Shown: positions 17,519 through 40,658 of the stretch, in pieces
Layout of the letters: every line of letters begins with the position of its first letter
How positions within the stretch are numbered: the stretch's first letter is position 1
From: a virus
DNA length: 64,000 nucleotides
IMG/VR virus record: IMGVR_UViG_3300025309_000006
Span: 124,001 to 188,000 of that record
Strand: one strand, 5' to 3'
Notes under the pieces: model-generated
Told to the model about the DNA's origin: nothing
The model's input: the letters and a program-made list of their open reading frames with translations, nothing else
Database searches by the model: none
Position numbers and translations under genes: made by a program

Positions 17519-17524
17519 TTAGAT

Positions 17525-20148: not shown

Positions 20149-20257
20149 CTGATTCATAGTGTCTGTTTTTGTATTATTTCTAACACTACTCACATTTGGT
20201 GTAACACTCCACAGCCGTAAATTCCCGACTAGCCATCGGTATTTGATAATATTTGTT

Positions 20258-21437
20258 TTAAGCAACTTTAAATACTTTAGCATTCTTCAAATTTACACTT
20301 GCATTTTTATCACGATCAAGAATCATTCCACATTCTTTACAAATATATTCTCTATCTGAAAGTTTCAAATCCCTATCTATAGCACCACATTCACTACACA
20401 TTTTACTTGAAGGAAAATATCTATCAACAATTCTTAACTCAATATTATTCCATGAACATTTATATGTTAATTGCCTTCTAAACTCATGAAAACTTTGTTC
20501 GGCGACTGCTTTAGATAAATGCCTATTCTTCATCATCCCCTTGACGTTCAAGTCTTCGATCACTATATACTCTGGTTTGTTTTTCACCAGAATATTTGTG
20601 ATTTGATGAGCATAATTTAAACGAATATTGGATAATTTTTGATAAATAGTTCTGATTTGAGCTTCTAACTTGATAATGTTTTTAGTTTTAATGAACTTCT
20701 TGCCATCTTTGTTCATTTCGTATTTTTTAGAGACTTGACGTTGAAGTCTTCTTAATTTTCTTTTAAGTTTCTTTACAGCAATAGTCTTATTGATATTTTT
20801 GAATGGTTTATCAATATTGCTGATAATTGCCAAATCCTTAACCCCTAAGTCAATTCCAATTCCTTCATTACTAACATTTGAATAATTATTATTGTCTACA
20901 ATATCACACAGTACAGAAACATAATACCTTCCTGCTTTCATTGAAACAGTACCACTTACTACTTTTGCATTGGTTGGAATATATCCTTTTTCTTTCAGTT
21001 CGACAAATCCTAAAGTTGGAATTTGTATTTTATGACGTTTAACAGTCCAGTCACCCTTCCCATTCTTAGGAAAATAGATATTAACATCTTGATTTTTCTT
21101 CTTCTTGAATCTAGGGAATTTAGCTTGCCCCCTTAAAGAATCTTTTATATGCCATTTCTGCATTTACGATTGCTTTCTTTCTTGCCTTTGACCCACAATT
21201 ATCAATCCATTTGAATTCATCTAATACTTTTACTTCATTATTAATATATTTATCAAAATCATTGGCACTCATAAACGCTTGTTTCTTGTCAATCTTACCT
21301 TCTTTGTATAATTTATAAAGTTCTTGATTCTTAGTTAAATAAGAATTATAGAGGAAGCGACATATGCCAATTGATTGATGAATTTTATTAATATGAATTT
21401 CGGTTACTCTGAGTTCAGTTTTAAATCCTTTGAGCAT
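20258..21437 (-). pseudogene. tnpB: tnpB with +1 frameshift
   Basis: Two frames together make one TnpB: 21437 to about 21128 (MLKGFKTELRV to AYKRFFKG) and then QAKFPRFKKKK to 20258. The shift is a run of five G on the minus strand (21128-21132) where four would keep the frame. RuvC residues are kept (GIDLGVKD, VIEDLN, DRDKNAS), as is the zinc ribbon (CSECG, CKECG). The protein differs strongly from the first TnpB, so it arrived separately. Confidence 0.88.
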
Positions 21438-22330: not shown

Positions 22331-25300
22331 TTAGCACTTGCTATATCCACAAACACAACTAATACAGCCACTAATATGTTTCAATTTAATACCACAGTCT
22401 GGACATTTATCTTTTTCATCAGGTTCCAATTTTTCTTCATTTGATAATTTAGCAATAGGTTTAATACTTGCACTTAATTCTCCATTGATAAATTTTAGCA
22501 TTTGTTTTGCTATAGAATCCGCACAACTTTTCCCGATAGTCTTATCTTTTTTTCTAGCTTCTTTACTCACATCGCAACTTACGCTTTGAAGTTGATCAAT
22601 TACTTGCAGAGGATCAACATTTGCTCTTAATAATAATGATACAGACCTACTCAACCCCTCTGTCATTCCGCGACAGCCTCCGGTACTTCCTGATTGAGAA
22701 AATATTTCACATAAATTATTATCATTGTCATATACAAGTGTTAACCACATTGATCCACATCCAGTTTTAATTTTTAATCTTACTGAATTGGCAATATCTA
22801 ATGTTTCATTAATCAAGACATATTTTTTATCTTCATCAGTTGAAGAAATTTTACCTCCTGAAAGGGTTTGATTTTGTCTTGACCCATCTCTATAGACAGC
22901 TAATCCCTTAAGACCTTCTTTCCAAGCATAAATGTAAATATCATATATATCTTCTACACTAGCATTACTTGAAAAATTGACTGTTTTAGACAAGGATAAA
23001 TCTACATGTTTTTGCAAAACTGATACCATGTTCACATGTTCTTTAGGAGATAAATCATGAGCAGTAACAAAAATATTTCTAATTTCTTTAGGAATTTCTT
23101 TTATTCCTTGACATGAACCATGATTATTTTCAATCTTACCCATTAGTTCTTCAGAATAAATCCCCAATTCTTTAAGTTTGTTTTCAAAGGTTGGATTATT
23201 TATAAAATAAATATTATTATCATATGTCCTACGACTGTATGTAAGACCAAATTGTGGTTCGCAACCTCCAGAAACCCCTGCTAGAAATGATATTGTTCCA
23301 TTGGGGGCAATTGAAAGCAATGAACTATTTCTAACTTTCAATCCCTGTTGTTGCCATTCACTACCTTCCCAAGCAGGGTAAACTCCTCGTTCTTCTGCTA
23401 AATCCATTGTAGCTTTTAAGGCATTGTCTTTCATTACTTTAATAATTCTCTCTGCGAAATCATAACCTTTTTGAGAATTATATTTAATTCCTAATACATA
23501 CAGAGCATCTGCCAAACCCATCATTCCCATTCCAATGGGACGAATCGCTTCAGTCATTTGTTGAATTTTGGTTAGTGGCAATTTATTAATAGAAATCATA
23601 TTATCAAACCATCTAATCGCTTTATATGACAAGATTTTTAATTTATCCCAATTAAATTTACCATCTTTGATACAAGCATATATATTAATACTACCTAAGT
23701 TACATGAAGAATTAGGTATATTACTAAACTCATTGCAATTATGGACATAAGCTCCATTTGTAATTCCCATATGTAACTCATTTTCTGTAAAATCCCATAC
23801 TTCTGCTTCATCTAGTTCAGAGATTAATATCACTGTTTCAAATTTTTCATCTAGTTTGTTTTGGTATTCTAGATAGCCATTTTTATAGTCTTGAATAAAT
23901 CCAATTTCATCAAGGAATTTTTTATAGGAATTTCTACTAATAACAATATGGGCAGATTGTTTACAAGTATAAGTCCCATTGCTAAATTCTATATCATTCT
24001 TTTTATTGTGATACCACAATTTGCCTTTAACACCAAACATCAATAACATTTGTTGAACCTGTTTCAACATTTCTGTATTAATAGATACTAATTGAATCCT
24101 ATGATGTTCTTTTAAATTGCATCCATTTGCACTAAAAAGTCCAATCAAAAAATCTTTCATTTCATTTTTAGGAAGAGTCATAATCCAATCTGGTATCATA
24201 CGATCATCAATTTTATCATAAAAAGCATTAGCGTATACAGTACCATAGGGGATATTTAAGACATGATTTATATCTTGCTTGTTAGAATCTTTTGCGTAAA
24301 ACTTTTCTCCTAATTCTTTTTCTATTAAAATCATTGCTTCTTTATCTTTTTCTGGATTTGCAAAAATATATTTCATTCTATTAGATGCTTTATGGAATGT
24401 TGCATCTCCAAATTCAAAACCTAAGACTTTATAATTTACATGAGGGTATAGATTATTTCCGATCCATTCTTTTTCTTTAATTTCAAAAGCAATATCTTTT
24501 CCAATTAAATCAATTGCTTTACACCAACTACCATCTTTAAGCATAAATTTATGATCTTCAGTAGTAGTGTACTCATAACCACTTTTAGTCATAATTTTAT
24601 ATACTTTTTTTATGCCTGTTTGCCATGTTTTCGTAGTTACATATTTTTCTCCATTCCACATCTTAGATTTAATATTGCTAATTTTCTCTAAACCATTCTC
24701 AGTTACCATATAAGTATCTTTGTGTAAACAAGGATTTGTAAAAATTAATGTACTTAAATGTTTATTGGGATTATCCGCATCCATGCGACTTTGATAATTC
24801 GCTCCGGGTTCTCCTGTCTCCCATGAACATCTTGCAATTTCTTCTAAAATTTCTTTTGCTTTTAATGTCTGATACACAATGGTTGGATAACCTTTATCTT
24901 TCCACCACTCTAAATCTCCATTCCATTCTTGATTATAAATTTCCTTATTCCATTGATAATCAGGAAACTCTAGATTCCAATCTTCATCATTTTCTACAGC
25001 CTTCATAAAATCATCAGTAAGAGAGATAGAAATATTCATTCTTTTTAATTCACTTGTATTGTCTTTACTATGTATAAAATCTAATAATTGAGGATGCCAA
25101 CATTGAAGATTTATTTTTAAAGCGCCTTTTCTTGATGGATTAAATTTAGTCATATCATCAGCAGTTCTATCATATTTTCCCATAAATGTAGTAACTCCAC
25201 CAGCATATCCTTTAGATGTATCTACTTTTGCTTTTGCAGGTCTTAATACACTAATATCTGTTCCTGCACCACCATTGCGTTGAAAAATCTTACTAAATTC

Positions 25301-25597
25301 TGCATCTAACAAACATATGTCTTCTATATTATCTTTCGTTTGCAAAACAAAGCAAGATGATAATTGGCCTGGATTATCTTTATCTGCGTTTAACAAAACG
25401 GGTGTACTAAATATGAATTCCAAATTAGACATTGCTTCATAAACTTCTTTTTTAATCTGTTGTTTTTTATCATTAGTTTCTACTTCTGCAATTGCAGTTG
25501 AAACCCTTTCACATAAATCTTCCCAAGTTTTTTCGTTTTCTTTAAAGTATTGTTTTTCTTTAAGTAATTTCAATGCATCTTCTGAAATAGTTGTCAA
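22331..25597 (-). CDS. nrdJ: Adenosylcobalamin-dependent ribonucleotide reductase with intein
   Basis: A 1088-residue precursor; 757 after removal of a 331-residue intein. Class II features: FSTPVLLNAD and SSCFVLQTKDNIEDIC near the N-terminus, QRNGGAGTDIS, the active-site motif NPC (C621 after the intein), PNGTISFLAGVSGGCEPQF, a TSCPD-type end (GCRGMTEGLSRSVSLLLRAN) and a C-terminal zinc ribbon (CPDCG, CxxCxC). It makes deoxyribonucleotides without oxygen and needs vitamin B12. TTG at 25597 has GGAGG 9 nt upstream. Confidence 0.92.
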   Translation of the reverse strand: MTTISEDALKLLKEKQYFKENEKTWEDLCERVSTAIAEVETNDKKQQIKKEVYEAMSNLEFIFSTPVLLNADKDNPGQLSSCFVLQTKDNIEDICLLDAEFSKIFQRNGGAGTDISVLRPAKAKVDTSKGYAGGVTTFMGKYDRTADDMTKFNPSRKGALKINLQCWHPQLLDFIHSKDNTSELKRMNISISLTDDFMKAVENDEDWNLEFPDYQWNKEIYNQEWNGDLEWWKDKGYPTIVYQTLKAKEILEEIARCSWETGEPGANYQSRMDADNPNKHLSTLIFTNPCLHKDTYMVTENGLEKISNIKSKMWNGEKYVTTKTWQTGIKKVYKIMTKSGYEYTTTEDHKFMLKDGSWCKAIDLIGKDIAFEIKEKEWIGNNLYPHVNYKVLGFEFGDATFHKASNRMKYIFANPEKDKEAMILIEKELGEKFYAKDSNKQDINHVLNIPYGTVYANAFYDKIDDRMIPDWIMTLPKNEMKDFLIGLFSANGCNLKEHHRIQLVSINTEMLKQVQQMLLMFGVKGKLWYHNKKNDIEFSNGTYTCKQSAHIVISRNSYKKFLDEIGFIQDYKNGYLEYQNKLDEKFETVILISELDEAEVWDFTENELHMGITNGAYVHNCNEFSNIPNSSCNLGSINIYACIKDGKFNWDKLKILSYKAIRWFDNMISINKLPLTKIQQMTEAIRPIGMGMMGLADALYVLGIKYNSQKGYDFAERIIKVMKDNALKATMDLAEERGVYPAWEGSEWQQQGLKVRNSSLLSIAPNGTISFLAGVSGGCEPQFGLTYSRRTYDNNIYFINNPTFENKLKELGIYSEELMGKIENNHGSCQGIKEIPKEIRNIFVTAHDLSPKEHVNMVSVLQKHVDLSLSKTVNFSSNASVEDIYDIYIYAWKEGLKGLAVYRDGSRQNQTLSGGKISSTDEDKKYVLINETLDIANSVRLKIKTGCGSMWLTLVYDNDNNLCEIFSQSGSTGGCRGMTEGLSRSVSLLLRANVDPLQVIDQLQSVSCDVSKEARKKDKTIGKSCADSIAKQMLKFINGELSASIKPIAKLSNEEKLEPDEKDKCPDCGIKLKHISGCISCVCGYSKC
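23738..24730 (-). other. Intein in NrdJ with two LAGLIDADG-like motifs
   Basis: The intein covers residues 290-620 of the precursor. It begins with Cys (CLHKDTYMV), ends in VHN, and the next residue is Cys, as needed for splicing. A block-B-like TTTEDHKF is present. The endonuclease part has LGFEFGDATF and LIGLFSANG; the second motif has Asn where the metal-binding Asp usually stands, so DNA cutting may be lost. It interrupts the reductase exactly at its catalytic Cys. Confidence 0.88.
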
Positions 25598-27058: not shown

Positions 27059-29320
27059 TTATTTATTGGTTTGAGATAGTAGCAATTCTTTAAGATAAGT
27101 TTTTCTATTAAAGTCTGCTTTTTTCTTTATAGCTCTATTTACCGTTTCTATTTCACCAAAATGGAATACTTTTTGCTTTGCTCTCGTTTGCGAAACATAA
27201 ATAAGATTGCTATTAAGCATAAAGGTGTGAGCTTTAGGAGTTATCATAATAACCTTTTCACATTGACCGCCTTGGCTCTTTAATATCGAAATACTATATG
27301 AAAGCTTAATATTAATTAAATCACTTTTATTATAAATAACCAACTCATCAAATTGAATAATTAATTTACCATTCTTAATTTTTACGATTTTACCTATTTC
27401 TCCATTTGCAACAAATGTTTTATCATCTTCGTCTATATAACTTTCATTATATCTTATCGCACTATAATTATTAACAACTTGAATAACAAGATCATTCTCA
27501 TAAAATTTTGTATCTCCAAGTTGAACATGTATATTTCCTGATAATACATTAGGATTTGCTATAGGTTGCAAGTGCTTATTTATAGCAACCGTTCCATAAT
27601 CACCTACATTATACGATGACAATATCATTATATCTTCTTTTGATGTTCCAGATGATAATAATTTTTGATATAACGCCACAACATTTTTCATTATATTTTC
27701 TTGCAACATAGGTATAAACATATATCCTTTGTCATTACCAAACATTTGTGGATTTTTAGAATCTGCTAGGAATTTTTCACTATTTCTTGTTTTTGTTGCT
27801 ACAGTTAATACTCCTCCTTCTCCATATCTAAATATTTGAGTAAGAGAAACTATTGGAATTAAATTTGAATTAATTAGATCATAAAAAACATTACCTGCTC
27901 CAACAGAAGGAACTTGAGCTGAATCTCCAATCATCAATAACTTAGTTTTAGAAAAATCAATTGCTTCTAATAGATGTTTCATTAAGAAAACATCACACAT
28001 CGAAAATTCATCCACACAAACGATAGAATAAGGTAATTTACTTTCTTCGTTATATCCCCATATTGGAGGTTTGTATAATAATCCTCTATGTATTGTTGAT
28101 GCAGGTTCTTTTGCATATTCCGACAATATTTTTGCAGCCCTTCCTGTGGGAGCAAACAAACAAAATGATTTATTATTATCATTCAACATATCAATCAAAG
28201 ATTTAGTTGTAGCACTCTTCCCACTCCCGCTAAACCCATTGAGAATACACACATTAGAATTACACACCATAGGTAAAACTTTATGTTGTTGCTCTGTGAG
28301 AGTAATATTCCCATTATTCTTATATTTTTCCGTATCAATTTCCCATTTATTTTCCACCTTCAATCCTTCTAAAATCCTATTAGCAATATATAATTCTGTT
28401 TGATATGTTTCTTCTAATGCAACAGTATTTAAACCTTTATCAAAATGAATATCTTTATCATTCTTAATAATATCAACAAAATGTTCAATACATTTCTTTG
28501 CTAGTGCTTCAGATTGTTTTCTTAGGACTTTGATATCAATTTTAGTATTTCCATCATTCTCATTTTCTTCTAGTAGAAACATAATTGCTGATTTTTGTCT
28601 TTGACTAGAAGTTTGTAAATCAAAAGTAAAATCAATTGGAGGAATTTCTCCTTTTGCTTTTGTTGTAATACAATCTTTGTTAAATTCAAGTAGTATCTTA
28701 TCTGCAGTTTTGAATGAAATTCTTGACAATCCGCATAAACACATGTACGGATTGTCTTGTAGTTTTTCTTTAATCTTATCCACTGAACCATATTTATCAT
28801 ATAATGCCTTTAAGATTTTGAATTCAATAAATCCTTTAAATTCTGTAACTAATTCTCCTAATACAAAATTCTCAACAATTTTTCTTTTAATGACCTCAAA
28901 TCTAACTTCTCCAATATTGTATAATTTCTTTAAATCAATGTCATCTAAGCGATTATTTATAACTCTATCAATAATATCTGGATATTCACGCATCACTTCA
29001 TCAACCTGACTATTACTATCTAATATGCTTTGTAAAAACAATCTAGTTGATGTCTCTGTTTTAGGCATATCCCTTCCTATATTAATTACTTTATACGATA
29101 TTCCATTTTTCCCTTCTTTTTCTTCTGATTTTATACTATACTCTATGCCCGTTTCAAGGTCGGGTAAATTTCCTAGAATGCTGACATTTTGATAAGAGTT
29201 TTTAACTATATGAGGATATTTAGTTTCATCAACATCTAGTGCATATATTTTATAATCGTCAGTATTATAAGGGTTTGCTACCACAACACCTTTAAATTCA
29301 TAAATTATTTTATTTTTCAA
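27059..29320 (-). CDS. RecD-like SF1B DNA helicase
   Basis: 753 residues. N-terminal OB-like and helix-hairpin-helix parts are followed by the helicase core: Walker A GFSGSGKSATT at about 362-372, motif Ia APTGRAAK at 390-397, Walker B VDEFSMC at 436-442, motif III MIGDSAQVPSVGAG and C-terminal VYVSQTRAK-like LIYVSQTRAKQ. This is the RecD2/TraA-type 5'-3' helicase layout without a nuclease domain. TTG 29320 has AGGG 8 nt upstream. Last gene of the replisome operon, 17 nt after the polymerase. Confidence 0.85.
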   Translation of the reverse strand: MKNKIIYEFKGVVVANPYNTDDYKIYALDVDETKYPHIVKNSYQNVSILGNLPDLETGIEYSIKSEEKEGKNGISYKVINIGRDMPKTETSTRLFLQSILDSNSQVDEVMREYPDIIDRVINNRLDDIDLKKLYNIGEVRFEVIKRKIVENFVLGELVTEFKGFIEFKILKALYDKYGSVDKIKEKLQDNPYMCLCGLSRISFKTADKILLEFNKDCITTKAKGEIPPIDFTFDLQTSSQRQKSAIMFLLEENENDGNTKIDIKVLRKQSEALAKKCIEHFVDIIKNDKDIHFDKGLNTVALEETYQTELYIANRILEGLKVENKWEIDTEKYKNNGNITLTEQQHKVLPMVCNSNVCILNGFSGSGKSATTKSLIDMLNDNNKSFCLFAPTGRAAKILSEYAKEPASTIHRGLLYKPPIWGYNEESKLPYSIVCVDEFSMCDVFLMKHLLEAIDFSKTKLLMIGDSAQVPSVGAGNVFYDLINSNLIPIVSLTQIFRYGEGGVLTVATKTRNSEKFLADSKNPQMFGNDKGYMFIPMLQENIMKNVVALYQKLLSSGTSKEDIMILSSYNVGDYGTVAINKHLQPIANPNVLSGNIHVQLGDTKFYENDLVIQVVNNYSAIRYNESYIDEDDKTFVANGEIGKIVKIKNGKLIIQFDELVIYNKSDLINIKLSYSISILKSQGGQCEKVIMITPKAHTFMLNSNLIYVSQTRAKQKVFHFGEIETVNRAIKKKADFNRKTYLKELLLSQTNK

Positions 29321-29336: not shown

Positions 29337-32300
29337 CTAATATACATCATAGTTGATAAGTATCTCTTCGTCCTCATCTGACTTCATCCACTTGCCGCCA
29401 ACGTTCTTTGTCTTCTTTTGAGTTTTGAATTCATTGACTTTTAAGACATCGTACAACTTGAAGGGGTTTTGGGAGAATATCTTGCCATCCTTGATTTTTG
29501 TCTTCATTTCTTTGCCATTATTTATTTGGCGTAATGTGACATATGGTTTAGTTTTATCCTTATATACTTCATACTTAATAATTATATAAAAACTATCTCC
29601 TGCTCCTTCATTGATATACTTAACATATTCTAAATAATCCATTTCAAATTTAACTTGATCTTTAATTGACATTGATTTGTCTTCTATAGTTTGAATAACT
29701 TCTCTGACATATCCTATCATATCTAATTCTTTATAAAGTGTTTCAGTTGTTTTATTACTATATTTTTTTAATGTATCTTCATTAATATTTAGTTTTGCAA
29801 TATCTTTGAAATTTATTTGTTTACGACTTGCAAAAGTATCATATATTTCAATTATTTGAAGAAGTTTTTTATTCTTGCCAAATTTTTTAAAGAAATCTAG
29901 TCCAGTTAATATTTTTAGCTGTCTTGAATTAGTTGAAGTATTTTTTATATCTTGCAATAGAGTTATAAAATTAGTATATTTAGTTTGTTGTGCTAAATTA
30001 TATAACTCTATTGCCACTTGACCATTGAGAAATTTAATTGAAGTTATAGATTTATAAATTGTATTTGTTTTCCTATCAAATGAATATGTATCTATTGAAT
30101 TTCCAAATTCAATGTCTGATAATTTAATATTAAAATAAGGTAATTCTTCAAGAATCTTATGAGTTTTTTCTGTATCGGAATCATATTCATTTAATATAAC
30201 CGTGTAGTATTCTAAGGGATAATTTGCTTTTAAATAAGCCCCATATAAACTATCCCAAGCTACAGAAAGGCTGTGACTGGCATTAAAAGAATATTTCGAG
30301 GCATCATTGACAACTTGCCATACATCCTCAAACTTTTCATCATTACCTACGTTTTTTATATATCCTGCAATTAATTCACTTTTAAGTTCTGCAATCTCTT
30401 CTTCTTTAAATTTCTTTTTTGCAATCTTTTTGATGATGTCGTAAGTATGATCTTCTTTAAGTCCACACCATACAAGAAATGCCATAATAGATTCTTGATA
30501 AAGCATGAAATGATATGATGGTTCTAGAATATCATCTATTTCTTTAACTCCTGTTGAATATTCATTTCTCTCTAAAAATGTATTAAGTAAACTTGCGAAC
30601 CCTGGCCTAATGGCAGCTACAAAACCAGAAATTTCTGCTACATTAATGGGGCAGTATCTTTTAACAAAAGTCGTACTTAAATCTGTGTCAACTTGATTAA
30701 GAGTTGCTGTCAATCCATTTTTATATAAATCCCAAACCTTATCATTAAGGAGTTTTTTTAGTTCTCGAATATTCGGAATTGGTTTATCAAGTAATTTGAA
30801 AGTATCTGATACAATTTTCCAAACTTTTACAGTAAGAAAATCATTTTTAAGATATTTCCAATTATCGGATGTATACCCATCAATACATGCACAAATTTGA
30901 TCCCCTACTCTTAGCAATCCTAATTCTTTAGATATTGGTTTGTTCAACATAACAAAACTACATGGACTAGGAGATATACTATCTATTACTCCTATAAACT
31001 TTTTGGATTCTTCAATTAAATCTTTCCATTGTGGATCTTTAACGTATTTCTCAACATCTTTACCAACTTCATTGTATTGATCCATTGGCATATCATATGC
31101 TCTACATAGGTTTCTAAAAGCAGAAGACTCTTTCATAGTTCCTATGGCATACATATAGTAAACATTGTCTTCTCCTAAAATATCTTTAGATGCTTTAATT
31201 GGAGCTTCTACGTCTGCCCAATTAAAATCTATATCGGGCAAACTTTTAGATTCAAGAATTCTTGAAACAGTCATAAATCTTGAAGGATATAGAGGAACTT
31301 CAGATTCAAATCTATCTATTTCTGTGAATCCTAGAAGTTTATTTACATAGAAGCTAACCGCACTGCCACGTCCCGTTCTAGTAAGAATTCCATCATATAC
31401 ATTAACTGCCCTATCAATAATTCTTTCATTTAATAAAAAATAATCTGCCATATCTGTATCTTTAATGGTATTATATTCAAATGCGATTCCGTCTTGATAT
31501 TCCTTATGTCTTTTTGGATCAATATTTTTCTTTTCTTCTTCCCATTTTTCTAAAATAATTGATTTAAGTTTTTTATTAGAATCTTCATTGGGATAAATTG
31601 TTGGCATTTTAATATCTTTTGTGAAAATTAAATCTTCACATTGATCGAATATTAATGTATTATTTAGTGACTGGATAATTTGATTACTTGATAAGACATT
31701 TTGATCTTTATATCTTTCAACGATAGTATCATAATCAGGATAATCTAAGATAAATCCTTCTTCCTCTTCATATCTTAAACCCTTTCCTCTTAGAAATAAA
31801 TCTCTATCATGTCTTTGTTCTGGATAGATATAGTGAGAGTCGTTGGCATGAATAATTGGAATATTAAATTCTCTAGCTAATTTAGTTATTTTTAAATTAT
31901 GTATAACTTGAATTTGATGAGCATGCGCTTGTGTTTCTAGATAAAAATTATTACCAAAATGTTTTGCTATAGGTTCTAAAAATATATTTGTAGCATCTTC
32001 ATCTCTTAATATTCCTGCAACACAAGCAGATGTAACTATAAAATTGTTTGGATTTAATGAAAGCAATAAGTTTAAATCGATTCTTGACTTATAATAAAAT
32101 CCTGTCTTATTTGATTCAGACATTATCTCATTTAATTGATAAAAAGCATCTTGATTTTTACCAATAATAATAATATGGCTATTTCTATTGTCTTTTTCAA
32201 ATCTATCTTTTACAATATAAAGTTCTGCCCCAAAAATCATTTTAATATCATTCTTTTGGCATAAATCATACATTTCTAAAAAGTTACCGCCCCACCCATG

Positions 32301-32429
32301 TTGAGTTGTAAATAGGGTGGTATGATTTAATTCTTTTGCTCTGTCTATATAATCTTGTGGTCTTACTATACAATCCAATGTCTTAACATTCGAGTAGTGA
32401 CAATGTTTATGGTAATTATTATATCTCAT
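29337..32429 (-). CDS. dnaE: DNA polymerase III alpha subunit, PHP-DnaE type, phage-like
   Basis: 1030 residues. An N-terminal PHP domain (NYHKHCHYSN, FTTQHGWGG, HANDSHYIYP) is followed by the C-family polymerase core with GRGSAVS at 353-359 and PDIDFN at 398-403. In bacterial DnaE the last motif is PDxDxD; here the second catalytic Asp is Asn403. PHP ligands are partly changed (TQHG for TDHG). There is no exonuclease insertion. A good AGGAGG precedes the ATG. It gives the element its own replicative polymerase. Confidence 0.88.
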   Translation of the reverse strand: MRYNNYHKHCHYSNVKTLDCIVRPQDYIDRAKELNHTTLFTTQHGWGGNFLEMYDLCQKNDIKMIFGAELYIVKDRFEKDNRNSHIIIIGKNQDAFYQLNEIMSESNKTGFYYKSRIDLNLLLSLNPNNFIVTSACVAGILRDEDATNIFLEPIAKHFGNNFYLETQAHAHQIQVIHNLKITKLAREFNIPIIHANDSHYIYPEQRHDRDLFLRGKGLRYEEEEGFILDYPDYDTIVERYKDQNVLSSNQIIQSLNNTLIFDQCEDLIFTKDIKMPTIYPNEDSNKKLKSIILEKWEEEKKNIDPKRHKEYQDGIAFEYNTIKDTDMADYFLLNERIIDRAVNVYDGILTRTGRGSAVSFYVNKLLGFTEIDRFESEVPLYPSRFMTVSRILESKSLPDIDFNWADVEAPIKASKDILGEDNVYYMYAIGTMKESSAFRNLCRAYDMPMDQYNEVGKDVEKYVKDPQWKDLIEESKKFIGVIDSISPSPCSFVMLNKPISKELGLLRVGDQICACIDGYTSDNWKYLKNDFLTVKVWKIVSDTFKLLDKPIPNIRELKKLLNDKVWDLYKNGLTATLNQVDTDLSTTFVKRYCPINVAEISGFVAAIRPGFASLLNTFLERNEYSTGVKEIDDILEPSYHFMLYQESIMAFLVWCGLKEDHTYDIIKKIAKKKFKEEEIAELKSELIAGYIKNVGNDEKFEDVWQVVNDASKYSFNASHSLSVAWDSLYGAYLKANYPLEYYTVILNEYDSDTEKTHKILEELPYFNIKLSDIEFGNSIDTYSFDRKTNTIYKSITSIKFLNGQVAIELYNLAQQTKYTNFITLLQDIKNTSTNSRQLKILTGLDFFKKFGKNKKLLQIIEIYDTFASRKQINFKDIAKLNINEDTLKKYSNKTTETLYKELDMIGYVREVIQTIEDKSMSIKDQVKFEMDYLEYVKYINEGAGDSFYIIIKYEVYKDKTKPYVTLRQINNGKEMKTKIKDGKIFSQNPFKLYDVLKVNEFKTQKKTKNVGGKWMKSDEDEEILINYDVY

Positions 32430-32439
32430 ATTTATCCTC

Positions 32440-33591
32440 CTAATCCATCAAATCCTTCATCCACGACAAATCCTCTTCATCTACTTTACTATCTTTATTA
32501 TTAAACATCTCTAAAGTATCAAGATATGCCTTATATGGTGCGTGAATTTTTGCTGAATAACCATTCAAATTCGCCAAGAAATAACTTTCTGTATCTGTAA
32601 CATCTTGCCACCATATTTTATTATCCAATGTATTTTTATATTCAACTTGCTTAACCTTAATCTCTTCAACTGTCTTTACAATATCATCTAATAATTCTTG
32701 AATTGATTCATCATCTAGCGATATTTCAACATAACAATCTTTAACTACAAATTTACTCTTTACATCACCAGGTAAACATTCTATTGAATTGTCAACTACC
32801 ATTTTATTAAGATAATCATCTATTTCTTCTTCGCTGAATTTACTATCTGATTTCTTTAACCACATCTTAGCATTTGATGATAAACTACTTCCTATAGCAT
32901 TTCTTTCAACGATTCTACTTTTTAATTTGCCATTAGCTTGCATACATTCTACTTCTACATATTTAAGGAACGCCCATCTAGCAATAATTTGATCCATCGG
33001 TATGTTTAGTTTTTTGTGGACACCATAACTATAAAGTAGAAGTTGACCTTGCTCTTTCTCTATTTTTTTACCTTTATACAAGGAGCTTGTTTTCCAATCT
33101 GTGATTACGCAGATATCTTTATCTTCTCTTTTTTCCATATGTATAGCATCTACATAAGCCTGTATTAGTATATTATTTATCTTTATTGGAACAAAGACTT
33201 CAAGTTTCAATTTATGAGGTATTCGTTGATGATTTTTAAAGAAGTGTCTCATACATGATTCATATTTATTTCCTATTTTTTTATTTTTGTCTTCATCACT
33301 TCTATCATATTTTAGATTGCCAATAGTAAATTCAAATAGTTTTTCTTCAAATATTTCTATCATATCGGCGTAGGATATTTCTTTATTATAATATTTTTCT
33401 AATATATCATGAGAAGCGTTACCAAATACCCCGTATATTGAATCTTTTCTGTCCTCTGGTATTTTAAGAATATATCGTAAGAAGAAAGTATAAGTGTCTC
33501 CTTTGTATTGGTTATATTTTGACCATGAATATATTTCATCACAATCTAATTTATTAGCTATTAATCTAATTTCTTCGCCTGTTTTACGCAT
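32440..33591 (-). CDS. PD-(D/E)XK nuclease, RecB/Cas4-like
   Basis: 383 residues. Core residues in order: H61 in GNASHDILEKYY, D148 in AYVDAI, D165 and K167 in ITDWKTSS, and EQGQLLLYSYG at 180-190. This is the RecB-family nuclease arrangement (without the Cys cluster of Cas4 that I could confirm). It likely processes DNA ends during replication or recombination with the neighbouring RecD-like helicase. Confidence 0.8.
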   Translation of the reverse strand: MRKTGEEIRLIANKLDCDEIYSWSKYNQYKGDTYTFFLRYILKIPEDRKDSIYGVFGNASHDILEKYYNKEISYADMIEIFEEKLFEFTIGNLKYDRSDEDKNKKIGNKYESCMRHFFKNHQRIPHKLKLEVFVPIKINNILIQAYVDAIHMEKREDKDICVITDWKTSSLYKGKKIEKEQGQLLLYSYGVHKKLNIPMDQIIARWAFLKYVEVECMQANGKLKSRIVERNAIGSSLSSNAKMWLKKSDSKFSEEEIDDYLNKMVVDNSIECLPGDVKSKFVVKDCYVEISLDDESIQELLDDIVKTVEEIKVKQVEYKNTLDNKIWWQDVTDTESYFLANLNGYSAKIHAPYKAYLDTLEMFNNKDSKVDEEDLSWMKDLMD

Positions 33592-34312
33592 TAGTTATAA
33601 TCTCCTCTTTATCTATATCTTGAAATGTACATTGCCTATGAGTTTTTCTTTTACCTGCTAAACACTTATTAACATTAGCTTGTATTAAATCATATTTTTT
33701 ACATATATCAGTTATTAAACCTATGTCACTTTCTCCAGAAGGTAAATTTATTTTAATGTATCTGTTACTTCTTTTATTTCTTGAATTTTCACTTCTTGTT
33801 ACTATTCTAATATTTTCTTCTTCATAATTACCATTGTTATCAATTCTGTCTACTTCATATATTTTATGATTTTGTAATAAATCTTCATACTTATCAACAT
33901 TTTGTAAATAATCAATGAAATATTCAAAGCACAGCCAATTTTCTGAAACGAATATTCCTCTCCCTCCATAATCAATATAACTTTTAGTTGATGGATTGTA
34001 ACATCTCTCTAACATTTGTTTCCAATGGGGATATAATTTATGGCGAGAAGACATATTACCCAAACACCCAACTCCACAAACTGCACCGTAATAATATGGA
34101 TTTTTCAAAGTTCCGTTTTTTATATTATGATGTCTAGCCGATAATTGCGTACCATCATCAAATTCTACCAAAAAGGTATGATAATTACGGCGTTTTTCTA
34201 TCATACCAACAATTCTACATATACCATAATTATTTGTTTCCCATAAACTACCGTTATAATATGTAACGGAGGTGTTAGCTATTAATTGAATTTCTTCAAA
34301 TTGTTTTCTCAA
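33584..34312 (-). CDS. HNH-type endonuclease, probably homing
   Basis: About 243 residues from TTG 34312, with GAGAGGG 9 nt upstream. The core HWKQMLERCYNPSTKSYIDYGG and RIDNNGNYEEENIRIVT with ENSRNKR matches the phage HNH group that often carries an AP2-like tail. It overlaps both neighbours (primase end, nuclease start), which shows a neat insertion between two replication genes. Confidence 0.72.
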   Translation of the reverse strand: MRKQFEEIQLIANTSVTYYNGSLWETNNYGICRIVGMIEKRRNYHTFLVEFDDGTQLSARHHNIKNGTLKNPYYYGAVCGVGCLGNMSSRHKLYPHWKQMLERCYNPSTKSYIDYGGRGIFVSENWLCFEYFIDYLQNVDKYEDLLQNHKIYEVDRIDNNGNYEEENIRIVTRSENSRNKRSNRYIKINLPSGESDIGLITDICKKYDLIQANVNKCLAGKRKTHRQCTFQDIDKEEIITNA

Positions 34313-35381
34313 GTCTTTTGTCCCTCTCTTTAATATATTTTTTATGTTCTGAGTCATCATATACAACTCTATGTTTTAGTAAATATCTATATACTTTCTC
34401 AGGTTTATCTGCTGGCGATTCTTTTTCTTCTAGTAATCCATATTTATCGAACACATAACTTACGGTACGGATTCCATAGAATTTATCGCACATACTTCTA
34501 ATATGTTGTAAGGAAACATCTTTGTCCATACAAATAATTATTTCTGTATTAAGAGAAATCAATATTTTTACTTGTTCCTCAGATATATCATGTGATCCTA
34601 TAGACACACCAGTTCCATCTTTTCTACTATGTCTTTTTAATGTTGATTTCTCCGATTCAAACGCAACAACTCTATTTTCTTCTTGAATAGTCTTATAGTT
34701 TTCTTGCAATCCGTATAAATGTATTGATTTTGGAAACTTTTTTAAAGGAAAATATTTAGGAATGTCTAACATTTTATATTCAGGAATTGTGGTTCTCCCA
34801 ATCACTCCAACAAAATCATTTTCATCACCGCACCAATACCTCCAGGGAATTATAATTCTTTTCTTTTCTGCACTATAACCAATTTTAAATACTTCACAGG
34901 TAAAAGGAAGAATACCATCTATTCTTATCCAATCAATATGAGGTAATGGAATATACTCCTTGATAATCTCATTGTCATACAACTCAATGTCGTCAATGTT
35001 TACAATGCATCTTTTTCTTTTAACCTTTTTGAATACATTTAATGGATCTTTCTTATCAGGTTTATCTTGTTTATTAGTTTTAAATTTATATTCTAAACCA
35101 AATAATTCATGTAAATATTTATTAGCTTTTGAAAATGAAATATTTTTTATAGTTTGGCAAAGAGTAAATATATCTCCTCTTATTATTTCACCATCAGATT
35201 GAAATATTTTAGTAGAAAGTGTTTCTTTGTTTATTGCAATATTATTATTTGATGCATGTTCGGGTAAACCAGACCTATATTCTTTTGTATATTCTTTAAT
35301 ACCATGACAATTTAGGGATTTAAGTACTTCTTGTGTTTTATCATTGTCTAATATGTATTGTTTAAGCTCAATATAATCCAT
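34296..35381 (-). CDS. dnaG: DnaG-like primase
   Basis: 361 residues. The TOPRIM part has VVAFESEKSTLKR and IIICMDKDVS, matching the Glu and DxD metal sites of DnaG. The N-terminal zinc-binding segment looks degenerate (one CHG near residue 24) and the helicase-binding domain is short. It would lay RNA primers for the plasmid polymerase. It lies downstream of the DnaB-like helicase, with a frameshifted HNH gene between. Confidence 0.8.
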   Translation of the reverse strand: MDYIELKQYILDNDKTQEVLKSLNCHGIKEYTKEYRSGLPEHASNNNIAINKETLSTKIFQSDGEIIRGDIFTLCQTIKNISFSKANKYLHELFGLEYKFKTNKQDKPDKKDPLNVFKKVKRKRCIVNIDDIELYDNEIIKEYIPLPHIDWIRIDGILPFTCEVFKIGYSAEKKRIIIPWRYWCGDENDFVGVIGRTTIPEYKMLDIPKYFPLKKFPKSIHLYGLQENYKTIQEENRVVAFESEKSTLKRHSRKDGTGVSIGSHDISEEQVKILISLNTEIIICMDKDVSLQHIRSMCDKFYGIRTVSYVFDKYGLLEEKESPADKPEKVYRYLLKHRVVYDDSEHKKYIKERDKRLEKTI

Positions 35382-35401
35382 TCAAGTATATTCACCTACC
35401 T

Positions 35402-36149
35402 TTACTTAACTATTTTTGCATCAAATCCATATTTTTCATATAAATGACTATTGTTAAAATTTTTTATTTTTATCTCCTCCTTTAATCTTGCTATAATAGC
35501 ATCATCTAATTCATCAAAATAACCTAAATGTTTTTTCTTTCCATAAAATATCTGTGAATGCCATTTATTCATCTGTTTGTTAAAATAAACTCCTTGGCAA
35601 CCACTACTATTATTTATATTTGGGTTCCTATTAACATTATTTTGTCTGTGATCTGTAGTTCTGAGATTATATTTACGATTATTACTTTTTTGTCTATCGA
35701 TATGATCAACTTCTATTTCTGGATTATTGACTCCCATAATAAGCCTATGTATTCTAATTGTTTGTTTTTCATCTTCATCATTTTCTGATATACTAGAAAC
35801 AATATATCCTCGTTTGTTTTTATGCCAACAATATACTTGTATCTTATCATAGTCTTCTAAATCAAATTCAAAGTAATTATTTCTAAAATCATAACCTATA
35901 CCATATTCACCAGTTAAATCATATGTATTAGTTTTGCTACACCTAGCAATATTAACTTCTTTTTGCAAACATCCACAACTTCGAGTATTTCCATTTCTTA
36001 AACTAGTGCCATTTACTGTAAATATAGTTTTAAGAGGACAACTACATTGAACAATCCAATGACACACCCTATGTTTATTAATGTGAGAAAACTCTAAAAC
36101 TAATAATCTATCAAATGTTTTCCCTTTTAAATCAATTATTTTTCCCCAT
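35402..36149 (-). pseudogene. HNH endonuclease with AP2 domain, frameshifted near its start
   Basis: From ATG 36149 (GGAG upstream) the reading is MGKIIDLKGKTFDRLLVLEF only if one A is removed from a run of five (36139-36143). As it stands the first frame ends after five codons. The rest is intact from a GTG at 36067: Cys pairs CSC and SCGCLQ, HNH core RIHRLIMG, EVDHIDRQKSNNR, NNVNR, and a C-terminal AP2-like part GVYFNKQMNKWHSQI. It sits between dnaB and dnaG. Confidence 0.8.
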
Positions 36150-36160
36150 ATATAATCTCC

Positions 36161-37690
36161 TTACCAATCCATAGGTATATTAACTATACCTAATTCTTTA
36201 TATACATTTCTCGAATAATCATTTTCGCTGATAATCTGAAATTCATCTGTACTTCCAAATCTATTCTTAGTGACAAATATAATAGTATAAGACTTATTTT
36301 TGTCAAGTTTAAAGGGTATGCGAGTAAGTTTATTTTTACCTTCTAATCTAAAACATTTTAATTCATTTTTACCACCTTCAAATTCATCATCAAATGGTTT
36401 TCTTATCATTAAATTTGTTGATGCTACATCTACGATATTCTTAGCCAAACCAATATTATCATTTGTAAAATGCCTTTGTTTTGTACTACTTTTTCCTAAT
36501 TGATATGTAATCCATATATGTACATTTTTCCCTGCTGGTTTAATACAATCATAAATAGCAACACTATCCTTTGTCATTTCTGTCCATACTTGATCTGTTG
36601 AATTAATATCTGCACTAGCCTTCATTGTATCTAGTATGAACATTGAGCACCCTAATGAATGATATTTTTTGATAGTTTTAATTGCTAAAGACGCATTATA
36701 TTTAGGAAATGGAATTATAGTAATATTTTTATTCTGTTTCTTTTCTTCTATCCAGTCTGCACATTGATGTAATAATTCTTTATCTTCTGGAGAAAATTTA
36801 CCATCTCGCAATCTATATTTTTGAAAATCTTTTTTGAATATATTATTAGCCACCCATATAATTAATTCTTTTCTCCATTTTGTCACATCTTCTTCATTTA
36901 TCATTATGCATAATTTTTCATCATAAGTTATAACTTGTGGAAGAATTAATTCAATAGTTGTTGTGGTCTTACCTGCCCCACTTAAAGCTCCTAACATTGT
37001 AATATTACCTTCTAAATTACCTCCAATTTCTTTATTTAGAATAGGGGAATTATACAAAGGCATCCCTACTGCCAATCCTTTATCCATTTCATCTACTAAA
37101 TCATGAATCTCTTCGCATAAATTATAACTCTTGACATCTCCTTCTGCATTGATAAATATATGATTTAAGTGAGTTTCATAATATGCATAAATTTGTTCAA
37201 CATCCATATCCGCAAACTTACTTAATTTATCATACACTGGAAATTTTGCTTTCAATAACCCCAACACAGCATTCCATTTATGTAGTTCACTTATATAACC
37301 AATTAAGTTTTCTTCCTTGACATACTCTTTAGCTTTTTCAATAGTATCATAACCACCATATTCTTCATATTTAATCTTCAATTTATTGTGTTTTTCAAGA
37401 TATAATCCAACAGTTATTTCATCTAATGATTGTTTTTTCTCTTTAATTACTACATCATGTGCAATTACAAAATAAATCTTCCATATATTATTACTAAACT
37501 CTTCTACTTTTAATTTCTCATTTGTATAAATTAATTCAGGATTCTTAAAAAATATAGAAGTTATATTGGCTTCTGCTGATAATTTAAACTCTTTTACTTT
37601 TTTTACAGCATCAATGAGTAATTGTTCATAAGGACTTATTTCTTTTTTTACAACAGTAGTTTTTGACTTTGTTTTTGTAGCAACAGCCAT
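36161..37690 (-). CDS. dnaB: DnaB-like replicative helicase
   Basis: 509 residues. A helical N-terminal domain (to about 170) is followed by a RecA-type core with Walker A GALSGAGKTTTT, an INEED segment, Walker B MFILDTMK and a C-terminal QLGKSSTKQRH. This matches DnaB-family ring helicases, with a shortened C-terminal part. AGGAATT precedes the ATG. It belongs to the replisome operon with primase and polymerase. Confidence 0.82.
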   Translation of the reverse strand: MAVATKTKSKTTVVKKEISPYEQLLIDAVKKVKEFKLSAEANITSIFFKNPELIYTNEKLKVEEFSNNIWKIYFVIAHDVVIKEKKQSLDEITVGLYLEKHNKLKIKYEEYGGYDTIEKAKEYVKEENLIGYISELHKWNAVLGLLKAKFPVYDKLSKFADMDVEQIYAYYETHLNHIFINAEGDVKSYNLCEEIHDLVDEMDKGLAVGMPLYNSPILNKEIGGNLEGNITMLGALSGAGKTTTTIELILPQVITYDEKLCIMINEEDVTKWRKELIIWVANNIFKKDFQKYRLRDGKFSPEDKELLHQCADWIEEKKQNKNITIIPFPKYNASLAIKTIKKYHSLGCSMFILDTMKASADINSTDQVWTEMTKDSVAIYDCIKPAGKNVHIWITYQLGKSSTKQRHFTNDNIGLAKNIVDVASTNLMIRKPFDDEFEGGKNELKCFRLEGKNKLTRIPFKLDKNKSYTIIFVTKNRFGSTDEFQIISENDYSRNVYKELGIVNIPMDW

Positions 37691-38161
37691 TTACCATAAT
37701 TCCTCCAATTCCTTATCAATATTTTTATCTTTTGATTTTGCTGTATATTCAGCTCCTTCATGTATTTGATTTTCTAATTCTATATGTATGGTTTTTTCTT
37801 CTGCTTTTTTAGAATTTTTTAATCTTAATACCACATTATTTATTTCATTTTCAACAAAACTCATAATAGTATTTATTAAATGCCGTTCATCTTTAATCTT
37901 ATCTCTACTTGGGCCTAAATATTGAAGAATACTATATTTACAAAATTTACAAGTCAATAATATAATTTTATAATCATAATTTGCTTGTGGTTTCTGTTTT
38001 TTATTTGCCATAAATGTTCCTTTATGTAAACCTTTAAGTCTCAATGCTAAGTATCTTGGGAATTTTACACCCGTTTCATACTGTAAAATTTCTTTAAAAA
38101 CATAGTTTGCTAATTCTAACCAATCCTCTTGTTCTTGTTTCTTGGTAATTTTCTCTTCCAT
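37691..38161 (-). CDS. Unknown replisome-operon protein, 156 aa
   Basis: ATG 38161 is chosen for GAGGTG 5 nt upstream. Helical and very charged, with a single CKFC pair in the middle and a C-terminal IDKELEELW. The place directly before dnaB would fit a helicase loader or adaptor, but there is no AAA domain and no clear match. Confidence 0.5.
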   Translation of the reverse strand: MEEKITKKQEQEDWLELANYVFKEILQYETGVKFPRYLALRLKGLHKGTFMANKKQKPQANYDYKIILLTCKFCKYSILQYLGPSRDKIKDERHLINTIMSFVENEINNVVLRLKNSKKAEEKTIHIELENQIHEGAEYTAKSKDKNIDKELEELW

Positions 38162-38248
38162 TAAATCACCTCTATTAGTTTTATTAGAACTAGGGATTAT
38201 TGACAAATCAATAATCCCTATTAAATTCATAGATATGTGTATATTTAT

Positions 38249-39229
38249 TTACAGCATTTCAGCGAATTCTAACACCTGATTCAATTTTTCAATATCATTA
38301 TTAACTAAATCTTTGATGTTGATTTCTAAATCTCTGATTTTCTTTCCAATCTTCTTTTGATTTTCCTCAGAACTAGTTTTTAGTAATGCTTTAATTTGGT
38401 TAGCAATATCTTCTGCTTGTTCATCTTCTGCTTCCATAAATTCAGTGTCTTTACTTACCCCTACTGATAAGTCTAATGCTTTTTTAACTCCAAATTTCTT
38501 TGTGCTTTCCCATTTTGCTCTCCAAATTTCAAAAGAAGGATTTTCAATGATCTCTCCTTTTTTGGTTACTCCAGTTCTATCTTTATAAATTTTACCAAAG
38601 TAAGTTACATTGCCATCTTTGTCTTCTTTAGTAAACATTTGAAGTACAATATCAAAATCATGTTCTGCCTTCTTAGCTAAATCTGGTGCTTCTCCAATTT
38701 TCTTTTTATTAAGAGAAGATGGATCATCGAAAATATCTTTTTGATGAGCAATTTCAACTACCCACTTACCCATCGAAGAAAATATGATATAAGCAGTTTT
38801 TAGAGCTTGATTCCATCTTTTAATATGACCCCAATCACGAGTCGCGAGGCCCAAATCTGACATATCCACTTCTTTGCCTTTTCTCATTTGTTTTCTTGAT
38901 CTTTTTTCAACAACTTCGTATGCTGCTGCTTGCATGTTCTCATATAATTTTGTTCCACTATCAATTGCAATAGTATCAAAATCTTTTAATGCTTCCTCAT
39001 CATTTAATTCATCTAGTGTTTCTTGAACTTCAGAGGCAGATGTGGTACGCATGACTCCAATGATATTAGGATTGCTTTCAAGATAATATGTATTACCATC
39101 TTCACTATCTACTAAATTAATATTAGGAAATGTTCCTGCAAACGTTGATTTTCCTGACCCCGTGGCCCCAAATGCTAATACTTTACCACCAACATATGCT
39201 AAAATTTCTTCTTTTTTCTGAAAACCCAT
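38249..39229 (-). CDS. Sak4-like RecA-fold ATPase (single-strand annealing/recombination)
   Basis: 326 residues. Walker A AFGATGSGKST at about 15-25, then LVDSEDG, then Walker B FDTIAIDSGT. This is the pattern of the phage AAA_24/Sak4 group, which works with an SSB in recombination. Fits its place next to the SSB-like gene. The C-terminal third is acidic and helical. AAAGGAG precedes the ATG. Confidence 0.78.
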   Translation of the reverse strand: MGFQKKEEILAYVGGKVLAFGATGSGKSTFAGTFPNINLVDSEDGNTYYLESNPNIIGVMRTTSASEVQETLDELNDEEALKDFDTIAIDSGTKLYENMQAAAYEVVEKRSRKQMRKGKEVDMSDLGLATRDWGHIKRWNQALKTAYIIFSSMGKWVVEIAHQKDIFDDPSSLNKKKIGEAPDLAKKAEHDFDIVLQMFTKEDKDGNVTYFGKIYKDRTGVTKKGEIIENPSFEIWRAKWESTKKFGVKKALDLSVGVSKDTEFMEAEDEQAEDIANQIKALLKTSSEENQKKIGKKIRDLEINIKDLVNNDIEKLNQVLEFAEML

Positions 39230-39281
39230 TTATTTAATCTCCTTTATTATTTATTTTATTATTTAAATGATTATTGTGTTT

Positions 39282-39306
39282 ATCAGGAGGAATTTAACCT
39301 CCTGAT
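39282..39306. repeat. 9-bp inverted repeat between ssb-like and sak4-like genes
   Basis: ATCAGGAGG and CCTCCTGAT pair around a 7-nt loop. No T-run follows on the minus strand, so it may be an RNA processing or stability element; its arms carry AGGAGG and its complement. Confidence 0.45.
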
Positions 39307-39340
39307 AAATTCTGTGAAAATATTAATATATAACTATTAA

Positions 39341-40582
39341 TTATACATCTAACAATTTCATCCATGCTTCATCGTCAACTGCTTCTTCGTCCTCCTCAGT
39401 ATCATCATCTTCTTTTTTATCTAGTGTTTTCTCAAATTTAGCAACACTTTCTTCTAAATCTTCTGTTTCTTCCTCCTTCTCTTCTTCAACTTCAATAAAT
39501 TGAGAAAGAAAAACTAAATCGCTTTCTTTATATTTATCTTTATTGATTGCTAAAATTGGAACTTTTGTTTCTCCTTCGCCTTCAAATGTAATTAAAGGTC
39601 TTTTTATAAGCATTCTTTTTTCTTTATTACCACCAATTGCACATTTACTAAGAGCTTCTTCCTCTGTGATAACATTAAGTTCAATAAGTTCTTTAATATC
39701 TTCAGGAAGATCATCTAGAGTAATACTTACTACACTTGCCCCTTCAAGCATTTCTCCTTCTACAGTGACTTCTACAAGAGTGCCTTTTTTAGCAGGAGCA
39801 AAACATTTAGCAATGAGTTTCTTAGTATTTTCTGGTTTCACCTTATCTACTTCTAACTCAAATGTTTTTGTGAATGCTACTGTTTTCTTTATTTCTTTGC
39901 CGTCATATTTACCAACATAGTCAACTACATATCCCGTAATTGGAAATGATGCTTTTTCTCTATCTAATTTACCAACTGCATTTGCGTCACAAAGTATTGT
40001 TTGTGTAAATACTGCTTTATATTCTTCTGGTTTAGCTTTTGATAAGAATACAGAATTAACTTCTTTTTTAATAGAAACACTATCATTATATGCTTGATAT
40101 TTCAATTTTCCTTTAACATTTACTACCATTCCATTTTCAAGATGTTGTTGTATGTATTGAATTGCATCATATGCAGATAAAAATTTATTTTTGAATGTTT
40201 TATCTTTTGTATCTTTTTCTAAACCAACTTTGATGAAACAAGAGTCTGCTACTGATTCTAGAATTGTTTCGTCAAATCTATCATCCCAATCAATAGTGAA
40301 TTTATTATCAAAATCTTCTTGTTTTTTACCATCTACTTCTTTTATACCATGAACATATACTACATTATCTCTTTCTGATCCATAACCACCCATCATATCT
40401 GAATAGATGACATTACCATTTCCACAATCTACACCAAGATTCATTTGATTCCAAACCCAATCTGATTTTGTAGTATCTTTATCCATTGTGAAAGTATAAT
40501 CATTTACTTTTGCTTCTCCGATGAGTAAGAATTGTGCTTTACCTTTTTTCAATCCTAATTGTTCCTCTTTAATTTTTGCCAT
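39341..40582 (-). CDS. SSB-like single-strand DNA-binding protein
   Basis: 413 residues from ATG 40582. Two beta-rich halves (each with GKLKYQAYNDSVSI-like or VEVTVEGEMLEGA strands) resemble OB folds. The C-terminal 60 residues are very acidic and end in DDEAWMKLLDV, like the partner-binding tip of SSB proteins. First gene of the replisome operon. Its ribosome binding site can be hidden by a leader hairpin. Confidence 0.7.
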   Translation of the reverse strand: MAKIKEEQLGLKKGKAQFLLIGEAKVNDYTFTMDKDTTKSDWVWNQMNLGVDCGNGNVIYSDMMGGYGSERDNVVYVHGIKEVDGKKQEDFDNKFTIDWDDRFDETILESVADSCFIKVGLEKDTKDKTFKNKFLSAYDAIQYIQQHLENGMVVNVKGKLKYQAYNDSVSIKKEVNSVFLSKAKPEEYKAVFTQTILCDANAVGKLDREKASFPITGYVVDYVGKYDGKEIKKTVAFTKTFELEVDKVKPENTKKLIAKCFAPAKKGTLVEVTVEGEMLEGASVVSITLDDLPEDIKELIELNVITEEEALSKCAIGGNKEKRMLIKRPLITFEGEGETKVPILAINKDKYKESDLVFLSQFIEVEEEKEEETEDLEESVAKFEKTLDKKEDDDTEEDEEAVDDEAWMKLLDV

Positions 40583-40592
40583 ATTATCTATT

Positions 40593-40658
40593 CCTTCTTT
40601 CAATAATTTTATTTTATTATTTAATGCACATGATCTATTAAAATATATTGAAAGAAGG
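40593..40658 (-). promoter_or_regulatory. 13-bp leader hairpin that covers the ssb-like ribosome binding site
   Basis: In the mRNA, CCTTCTTTCAATA (from plus 40646-40658) pairs with TATTGAAAGAAGG (plus 40593-40605), a perfect 13-bp stem with a 40-nt loop. The 3' arm contains the AGAAGG of the gene starting at 40582. This predicts translational control of the replisome operon. Confidence 0.6.

Follow-up and report, generated by a model that had tools for sequence, protein, structure and literature searches.

Does a block of replication genes beside genes of plasmid type mark a conjugative plasmid or a phage? The question is raised by a 64,000-nucleotide stretch of DNA (the window), which comprises bases 124001-188000 of the 230,300-bp IMG/VR record IMGVR_UViG_3300025309_000006. 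A sequence-only reading of the window had described a "conjugative plasmid-like element" with a replisome operon, and had left the choice between a phage-plasmid hybrid and a plasmid class with its own fork machinery. For the present analysis the remaining parts of the record were read too, genes were predicted throughout, and gene calls were checked against Pfam, PHROGs and NCBIfam profiles. The element is a phage, very probably a large, temperate and tailed one whose host is Clostridium-like, and it is probably kept as a circular plasmid (phage-plasmid).

Phage genes and their linkage to genes of plasmid type

The plus-strand half of the record carries structural and packaging genes encoding a terminase, a portal, a tape-measure and a tail protein as well as endolysins; furthermore, it encodes PhoH. 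The large terminase is 35-40% identical to terminases of SPbeta-group, Thomasclavelia and other Bacillota phages, the portal and tape-measure proteins gave matches of 1e-48 and 1e-108, respectively, and genes located 3' of the portal gene match the SPbeta-type phages SPR and BUCT082. The search for phage structural genes in the rest of the element, proposed by the sequence-only reading, was thus positive. The "conjugative plasmid" reading fails because these genes sit on the same record as the window, and its alternative, a phage-plasmid hybrid, is supported by them.

A stretch of 184.8 kb (record 25817-210649) recurs without any difference in the sister record G001 (227,247 bp); it spans the structural genes, an operon resembling a type IV secretion system (T4SS), ParM and the replisome. 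Independent support for this linkage comes from two diverged contigs: G006 (112.8 kb) combines tape measure, DNA polymerase III (Pol III) alpha and the T4SS-like operon, and G007 (84 kb) combines tape measure, Pol III alpha and ParM/ParR.

The replication operon

The replication operon lies on the minus strand and runs from window position 40603 to 27059. Its genes are listed in the order of transcription (lengths in amino acids, aa; profile matches in brackets).

39341-40603, minus: SSB-position protein, 420 aa, operon head (phrog_2367, 3e-39)
38249-39229, minus: Sak4-like recombinase ATPase, 326 aa (phrog_124, 2.4e-19; AAA_24, 4.5e-13)
37691-38230, minus: conserved phage protein, 179 aa, position kept in relatives (phrog_25520, 3e-40)
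36161-37690, minus: DnaB-like replicative helicase, 509 aa (phrog_19, 6.8e-33)
35402-36067, minus: HNH endonuclease gene inserted between helicase and primase (phrog_99, 2.6e-35)
34296-35381, minus: DnaG-like primase (Toprim), 361 aa (NCBIfam dnaG, 9.2e-13; PRK08624, 5.3e-30)
33584-34366, minus: HNH endonuclease gene between primase and nuclease (phrog_2081, 3.9e-38)
32440-33591, minus: PD-(D/E)XK (RecB-type) nuclease, 383 aa (PF12705, 6.4e-14; phrog_1218, 1.2e-32)
29337-32429, minus: Pol III alpha, C-family, DnaE type with PHP domain, 1030 aa (PF07733, 2.6e-23; PF02811 (PHP), 3.3e-20; PF17657; phrog_405, 5e-230)
27059-29320, minus: RecD2-like helicase, 753 aa, last gene of the operon (AAA_30, 1.2e-29; phrog_4412, 1.5e-196)

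Profile matches confirmed Sak4, DnaB, DnaG, Pol III alpha, nuclease and RecD2 as members of one operon, as had been read from the sequence, and the polymerase retains its GRGSA and PDxD motifs. The RecD2-like gene lies just beyond the span 29337-40582 to which that reading referred. Most of its family calls thus stood, but it had not listed the two HNH genes (33584-34366 and 35402-36067), and its SSB call is the weakest in the operon. The SSB-position protein, whose gene also heads the operon in relatives, matched the Pfam SSB family with E = 0.042, below the cut-off. A Foldseek search with its AlphaFold2 model, which is of low quality (mean pLDDT 50), gave an SSB as top match with E = 0.061, and a profile of 12 homologues found no match in the PDB; an OB fold is thus weakly supported. 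As listed, the open reading frame (ORF) of the HNH gene at 33584-34366 extends into the end of the primase gene; its true start is therefore probably internal.

The description as "most of a replisome" holds for helicase, primase and polymerase but is overstated. Neither a sliding clamp (PF00712) nor a clamp-loader subunit (PF13177) was found in the record, which may be incomplete, although positive controls worked in both searches; the element therefore probably needs the clamp and loader of its host.

Relatives of the replication operon

Among phage records, the best full-length matches of Pol III alpha were Geobacillus virus E3 (51% identity), Psychrobacillus phage Perkons (48%) and Clostridioides phages (47-48%). 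With Pol III alpha as bait, 34 viral contigs were found. The order SSB-position protein, 179-aa protein, DnaB, DnaG, nuclease, polymerase, mostly followed by RecD2, is kept in 12 of these loci, some of the 12 being near-duplicates; in many of them the Sak4 slot is occupied by something else. Perkons (MT325768) shows the same order in ORF106-113, which encode a hypothetical protein, an AAA ATPase, a hypothetical protein, helicase, primase, PD-(D/E)XK nuclease, HNH and Pol III alpha; between Perkons and the record, identity is 26-35% for helicase, primase, nuclease and Sak4. With 12 viral loci and an isolated phage sharing it, this gene order is not due to chance. Perkons and E3 (KP144388) differ from the element in genome size (137-141 kb as compared to at least 230 kb) and share only 22-35% identity in the operon proteins other than the polymerase; furthermore, E3 has a single-strand exonuclease gene where the record has the PD-(D/E)XK nuclease.

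Among plasmid records, Pol III alpha at 47-48% identity occurred only in Clostridioides difficile elements of about 130 kb, one of which, NZ_CP020426 (131,326 bp), is exactly as long as the phage record phiCDIF1296T. The only relative in the genome collection was contig NZ_JAJFUC010000015 (C25; 149,326 bp) of a Clostridium sp. metagenome-assembled genome, whose polymerase is 75% identical. It carries the same replisome operon together with diverged phage genes, and it closes into a circle because its ends share an exact overlap of 141 bp, located inside the polymerase gene. The replisome genes form a block that is standard in large viruses of Gram-positive hosts, and the proposed plasmid class with its own fork machinery gives way to a phage with a known phage gene block.

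Some of these genes carry insertions. The Pol III alpha and RecD2 genes of one relative (L040:10001-14407 and 14392-17673) each remain one open frame although about 435 and 323 codons, respectively, are inserted in frame; such insertions in the relatives are probably inteins. In the window, the ribonucleotide reductase (RNR) gene (22331-25597) is interrupted in frame by a LAGLIDADG intein some 326 residues long (roughly residues 291-616), which is absent from the G006 homologue, and the polymerase of another relative (L042:9782-14392) contains a stretch similar to this intein region.

Putative partition and initiator genes

Partition and replication genes of plasmid type are predicted at the left end of the window, namely ParM/ParR with a palindromic site and an initiator candidate.

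4857-5111, minus: ParR candidate, 84 aa, overlapping the parM 3' end (ribbon-helix-helix-like by eye; partner of ParM in the relatives L076 and L077)
5072-5962 (listed ORF to 6040), minus: ParM-like actin, 296 aa (PF17989, 1.4e-6; NCBIfam ParM, 1.3e-10; weak match to 3js6 ParM)
5979-6025, no strand: candidate parC/operator, a perfect 23-bp inverted repeat with a 1-nt centre and TTGTAATACAA-like units, immediately 5' of the ribosome-binding site of parM
7919-8890, plus: candidate replication initiator with a C-terminal DnaA_N domain, 323 aa (PF11638, 8.4e-12)

The parM gene most likely starts with the ATG at 5962, behind a strong ribosome-binding site AAGGAGGAG. The ParR candidate gave no family match. 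The repeat lies between parM and its upstream gene, and TTGTAATACAA-like units were found at the equivalent place in relatives, four in L076 and two in L077. Allowing one mismatch, TTGTAATACAA occurs 14 times in the window as compared to 5.8 expected occurrences, and five of the 14 belong to this site. The DUF4379-type 501-aa gene upstream of parM was considered for the partition locus and rejected, being a mobile-type gene of which the record has further copies.

The T4SS-like operon

The T4SS-like operon runs from record position 127230 to 120634 in the order M23, pilin-like, VirB6-like, PrgI-like, VirB4-like, VirD4-like, Replic_Relax.

2649-3230, minus: M23 peptidase with N-terminal hydrophobic segment (PF01551, 2.8e-27)
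1807-2058, minus: pilin-like protein, 83 aa, two hydrophobic segments (T4SS_pilin, 9.5e-4, and TrbC, 6e-3, both below cut-offs)
781-1776, minus: VirB6/TrbL-like multi-pass membrane protein, 331 aa, five hydrophobic segments (23% identity in an alignment with phage G gp153)
429-776, minus: PrgI-like (VirB3-position) membrane protein, 115 aa (PF12666, 3.3e-5, 24.8 bits as compared to a 27-bit cut-off)
1-424, minus: start of the gene of a VirB4-like ATPase, 474 aa (NCBIfam conju_CD1110, 8e-32, below the equivalog cut-off; profile match to 4ag5, 2e-17; Walker motifs)
record 120634-124424 (L008:5634-9424), left of the window, minus: rest of the VirB4-like gene, VirD4-like and Replic_Relax genes (Replic_Relax PF13814, 6.8e-12)

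Type IV secretion, ParM/ParR and Rep had been placed on the same window; all are present, but the VirB4-like, VirD4-like and Replic_Relax genes lie mostly or wholly beyond its left edge. Several of the small proteins scored below curated cut-offs and were called by position and weak matches. The VirD4-like P-loop ATPase (570 aa) gave weak CedD, VirB4, VirD4 and TraD profile matches, and tblastn matched it to TraM-recognition/T4SS DNA-binding proteins on plasmids. Comparison of the record with G006 yielded a ratio of nonsynonymous to synonymous substitution rates (dN/dS) of 0.07-0.18 for the T4SS-like genes, and Walker motifs are intact; these genes are thus kept by selection.

A search for relaxases, which had also been suggested, detected neither PF03432 nor PF02486 in the record; other relaxase families were not searched genome-wide. 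To our knowledge, Replic_Relax is no established nicking enzyme. Its AlphaFold2 model was too poor to use (pLDDT 38.5), and in the records of seven relatives neither a search for it nor the controls gave a match. The corresponding locus of L076 and L077, flanked by ParM/ParR and a DndB-like gene, encodes small membrane proteins, one ATPase of 790-798 aa and an M23 peptidase.

Comparison with known phages

Large temperate phages similar to phiCD5763 of C. difficile are plasmidial siphoviruses with circular extrachromosomal genomes, and they encode Pol III alpha, helicase, RNR, guanylate kinase, a DNA-sulfur-modification protein and parM (PMC5786514). The record likewise has Pol III alpha, RNR and parM on one genome, and its Pol III alpha is 47.5% identical to that of phiCDIF1296T. 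In that phage, however, the replication genes are scattered; the genomes of the group measure 131-134 kb as compared to 230 kb, the operon proteins beyond Pol III show distant or no similarity, and type IV secretion genes are not mentioned for it (PMC5786514).

Tyroviruses (Bacillus phages Thrax1-5) carry ParM, a ribbon-helix-helix protein, a T4SS protein, Replic_Relax and a replication initiator in one region and Pol III alpha, primase, helicase, SSB and a RecD-like helicase elsewhere in the genome; a plasmid prophage stage has already been proposed by the authors (PMC9703825). As far as the description in that paper allows comparison, the gene types of the record match this plasmid-like cluster. 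Yet the Pol III alpha of the phages FADO, PJN02 and 136 is only about 27-28% identical to that of the record, Tyrovirus genomes are smaller (157-169 kb as compared to the 230-kb record), and one T4SS protein is named there, not a set. A further Tyrovirus trait is the possession of three tyrosine recombinases; a search of the record that was not exhaustive gave one integrase-family match. The record has the gene types of both the phiCD5763 group and the Tyroviruses and belongs to neither by sequence or size.

A set with the type order seen in the record, comprising pilin-like, TrbL/VirB6, VirB4 and VirD4-like ATPase genes, was found in gp150-gp156 of the 497-kb Bacillus phage G (TrbL_4, 1.8e-11, for gp153; T4SS_pilin, 3.7e-6; TraG P-loop, 1.6e-15). 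Its VirB4-like proteins are 26-28% identical to that of the record, and no Replic_Relax gene was seen alongside. In the lytic phage SPP1, a macromolecule translocon was proposed for gp31-gp32, where small membrane proteins lie beside a TrwB/VirB4/FtsK-like ATPase, and gp32 is non-essential (PMC6316719). SPP1 differs from the record in having one ATPase only, with no VirB6, PrgI or pilin named, and the arrangement in L076 and L077 resembles that of SPP1. A literature search for phage-encoded T4SS sets, which did not cover subscription literature, brought up only the SPP1 and Tyrovirus papers. T4SS-like genes are thus a recurring phage trait and do not by themselves make the element conjugative. 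The less ordinary feature is the multi-part set of pilin-, VirB6-, PrgI-, VirB4- and VirD4-like proteins in the absence of a recognised relaxase.

Proposed lifestyle and alternative explanations

Gene content, gene order, their conservation and the structural genes were observed directly; from these we infer how the element may live. The replisome operon would be the normal lytic or replicative gene block of the phage. Its helicase, primase, SSB candidate and DnaE-type polymerase would assemble the fork, with sliding clamp and clamp loader probably supplied by the host; recombination and the processing of ends would be the task of Sak4, the PD-(D/E)XK nuclease and the RecD2-like helicase. In the lysogen, initiation of plasmid replication would fall to the DnaA_N-domain protein and segregation to ParM/ParR, with the palindromic site as target. 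A membrane translocon would be the product of the T4SS-like operon.

Several observations weigh against a circular phage-plasmid of a Clostridium-like host. No match named a major capsid protein in the record. The record is linear, with no terminal repeats at its ends, and its end sequences are absent from G001. The two records diverge abruptly at record position 210649 (G001 184833) in an intergenic stretch, which may represent a population variant or an assembly junction; the outer parts may therefore vary between variants or be misassembled. The agreement with G001 is by itself weak evidence because both records may share source samples. The suggested host genus is drawn from a single relative, C25. 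Finally, a protein with a match to the phage integrase family phrog_5830 (record 200056-201066) leaves room for chromosomal integration.

This protein, together with a directionality-factor family match, speaks for a purely lytic or chromosomally integrating phage without plasmid stage, in which ParM/ParR, Rep and the T4SS-like genes would be acquired cargo; SPbeta-type phages, the relatives of the structural region, do integrate. Such a phage is nevertheless unlikely: no serine recombinase domain (PF00239) was found in the record, the ParM-ParR pair and the palindromic site are conserved in three contigs, C25 is circular, and the closest isolated relatives with Pol III alpha and parM are extrachromosomal circles (PMC5786514). 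From the metagenome origin and the divergence at 210649, one might suspect a plasmid and a phage wrongly joined during assembly, but such a chimera is hardly credible, as the diverged contigs G006 and G007 also join phage genes with replisome, T4SS or ParM genes and the complete E3 and Perkons genomes carry the same replisome.

A conjugative plasmid or conjugative phage-plasmid would spread from cell to cell via its own T4SS and carry a phage-derived replisome. The T4SS-like operon under purifying selection with its VirB4-, VirD4-, VirB6-, PrgI-, pilin- and M23-type proteins, the Replic_Relax gene that follows, ParM/ParR and the Rep candidate are all in its favor. We consider it very unlikely given the full set of phage packaging and tail genes, the lack of both relaxase families searched for, the related sets in phage G and, in single-ATPase form, in a lytic phage with a non-essential gp32 (PMC6316719), and the different one-ATPase version at the same locus of L076 and L077. 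Distinctly improbable, too, is a phage-plasmid with three routes of spread, namely virions, ParM-segregated inheritance, and its own T4SS-like machine that would pass DNA (or protein) to neighbours via an unconventional nicking protein such as the Replic_Relax product. The phage-plasmid as proposed above is a new, larger clostridial member of an already described kind and no new plasmid class.

Additional genes of the element

The integrase-family protein is one of two adjacent proteins (record 200056-202445) that match phrog_5830 and phrog_5732 and that we take to be possibly an SPbeta yopP/yopQ-like lysogeny pair. The putative lysogeny region also encodes an AgrB-like quorum-sensing protein (1.4e-34; record 203461-204093; L009:15962-16594, minus), and, next to it, a PemK/MazF-domain protein (record 204121-204945), both with relatives in C25. 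A protein encoded at window position 55795-56439 (minus) matches the phage "sporulation protein" family phrog_10856 (2.1e-24).

Additionally, a RAGATH-18 RNA (window 20146-20215, minus; 70.5 bits, gathering 44.9) was found directly 3' of a TnpB-like (OrfB_IS605) gene (window 20258-21163, minus), the site expected for a guide RNA. A gene of 500-590 aa is present in three copies with about 68% identical DNA (record 117068-118834, 130047-131552 and 206818-208554), at least one of which has a DUF4379 zinc-finger match; their places vary among relatives, and they are probably mobile endonuclease genes.

Biological meaning

In this Gram-positive contig, a replisome beside ParM, Rep and T4SS genes is the sign of a large phage, probably of a phage-plasmid, and not of a plasmid that brings its own fork machinery. 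The large temperate Bacillota phages with Pol III alpha thereby gain a clostridial lineage of 230 kb or more. T4SS-like membrane machines occur in several Bacillota phages, namely the phage described here, phage G, Tyroviruses and, in simpler form, SPP1; we found no demonstrated function for them, and the T4SS-like set is the part of the present record most worth following.

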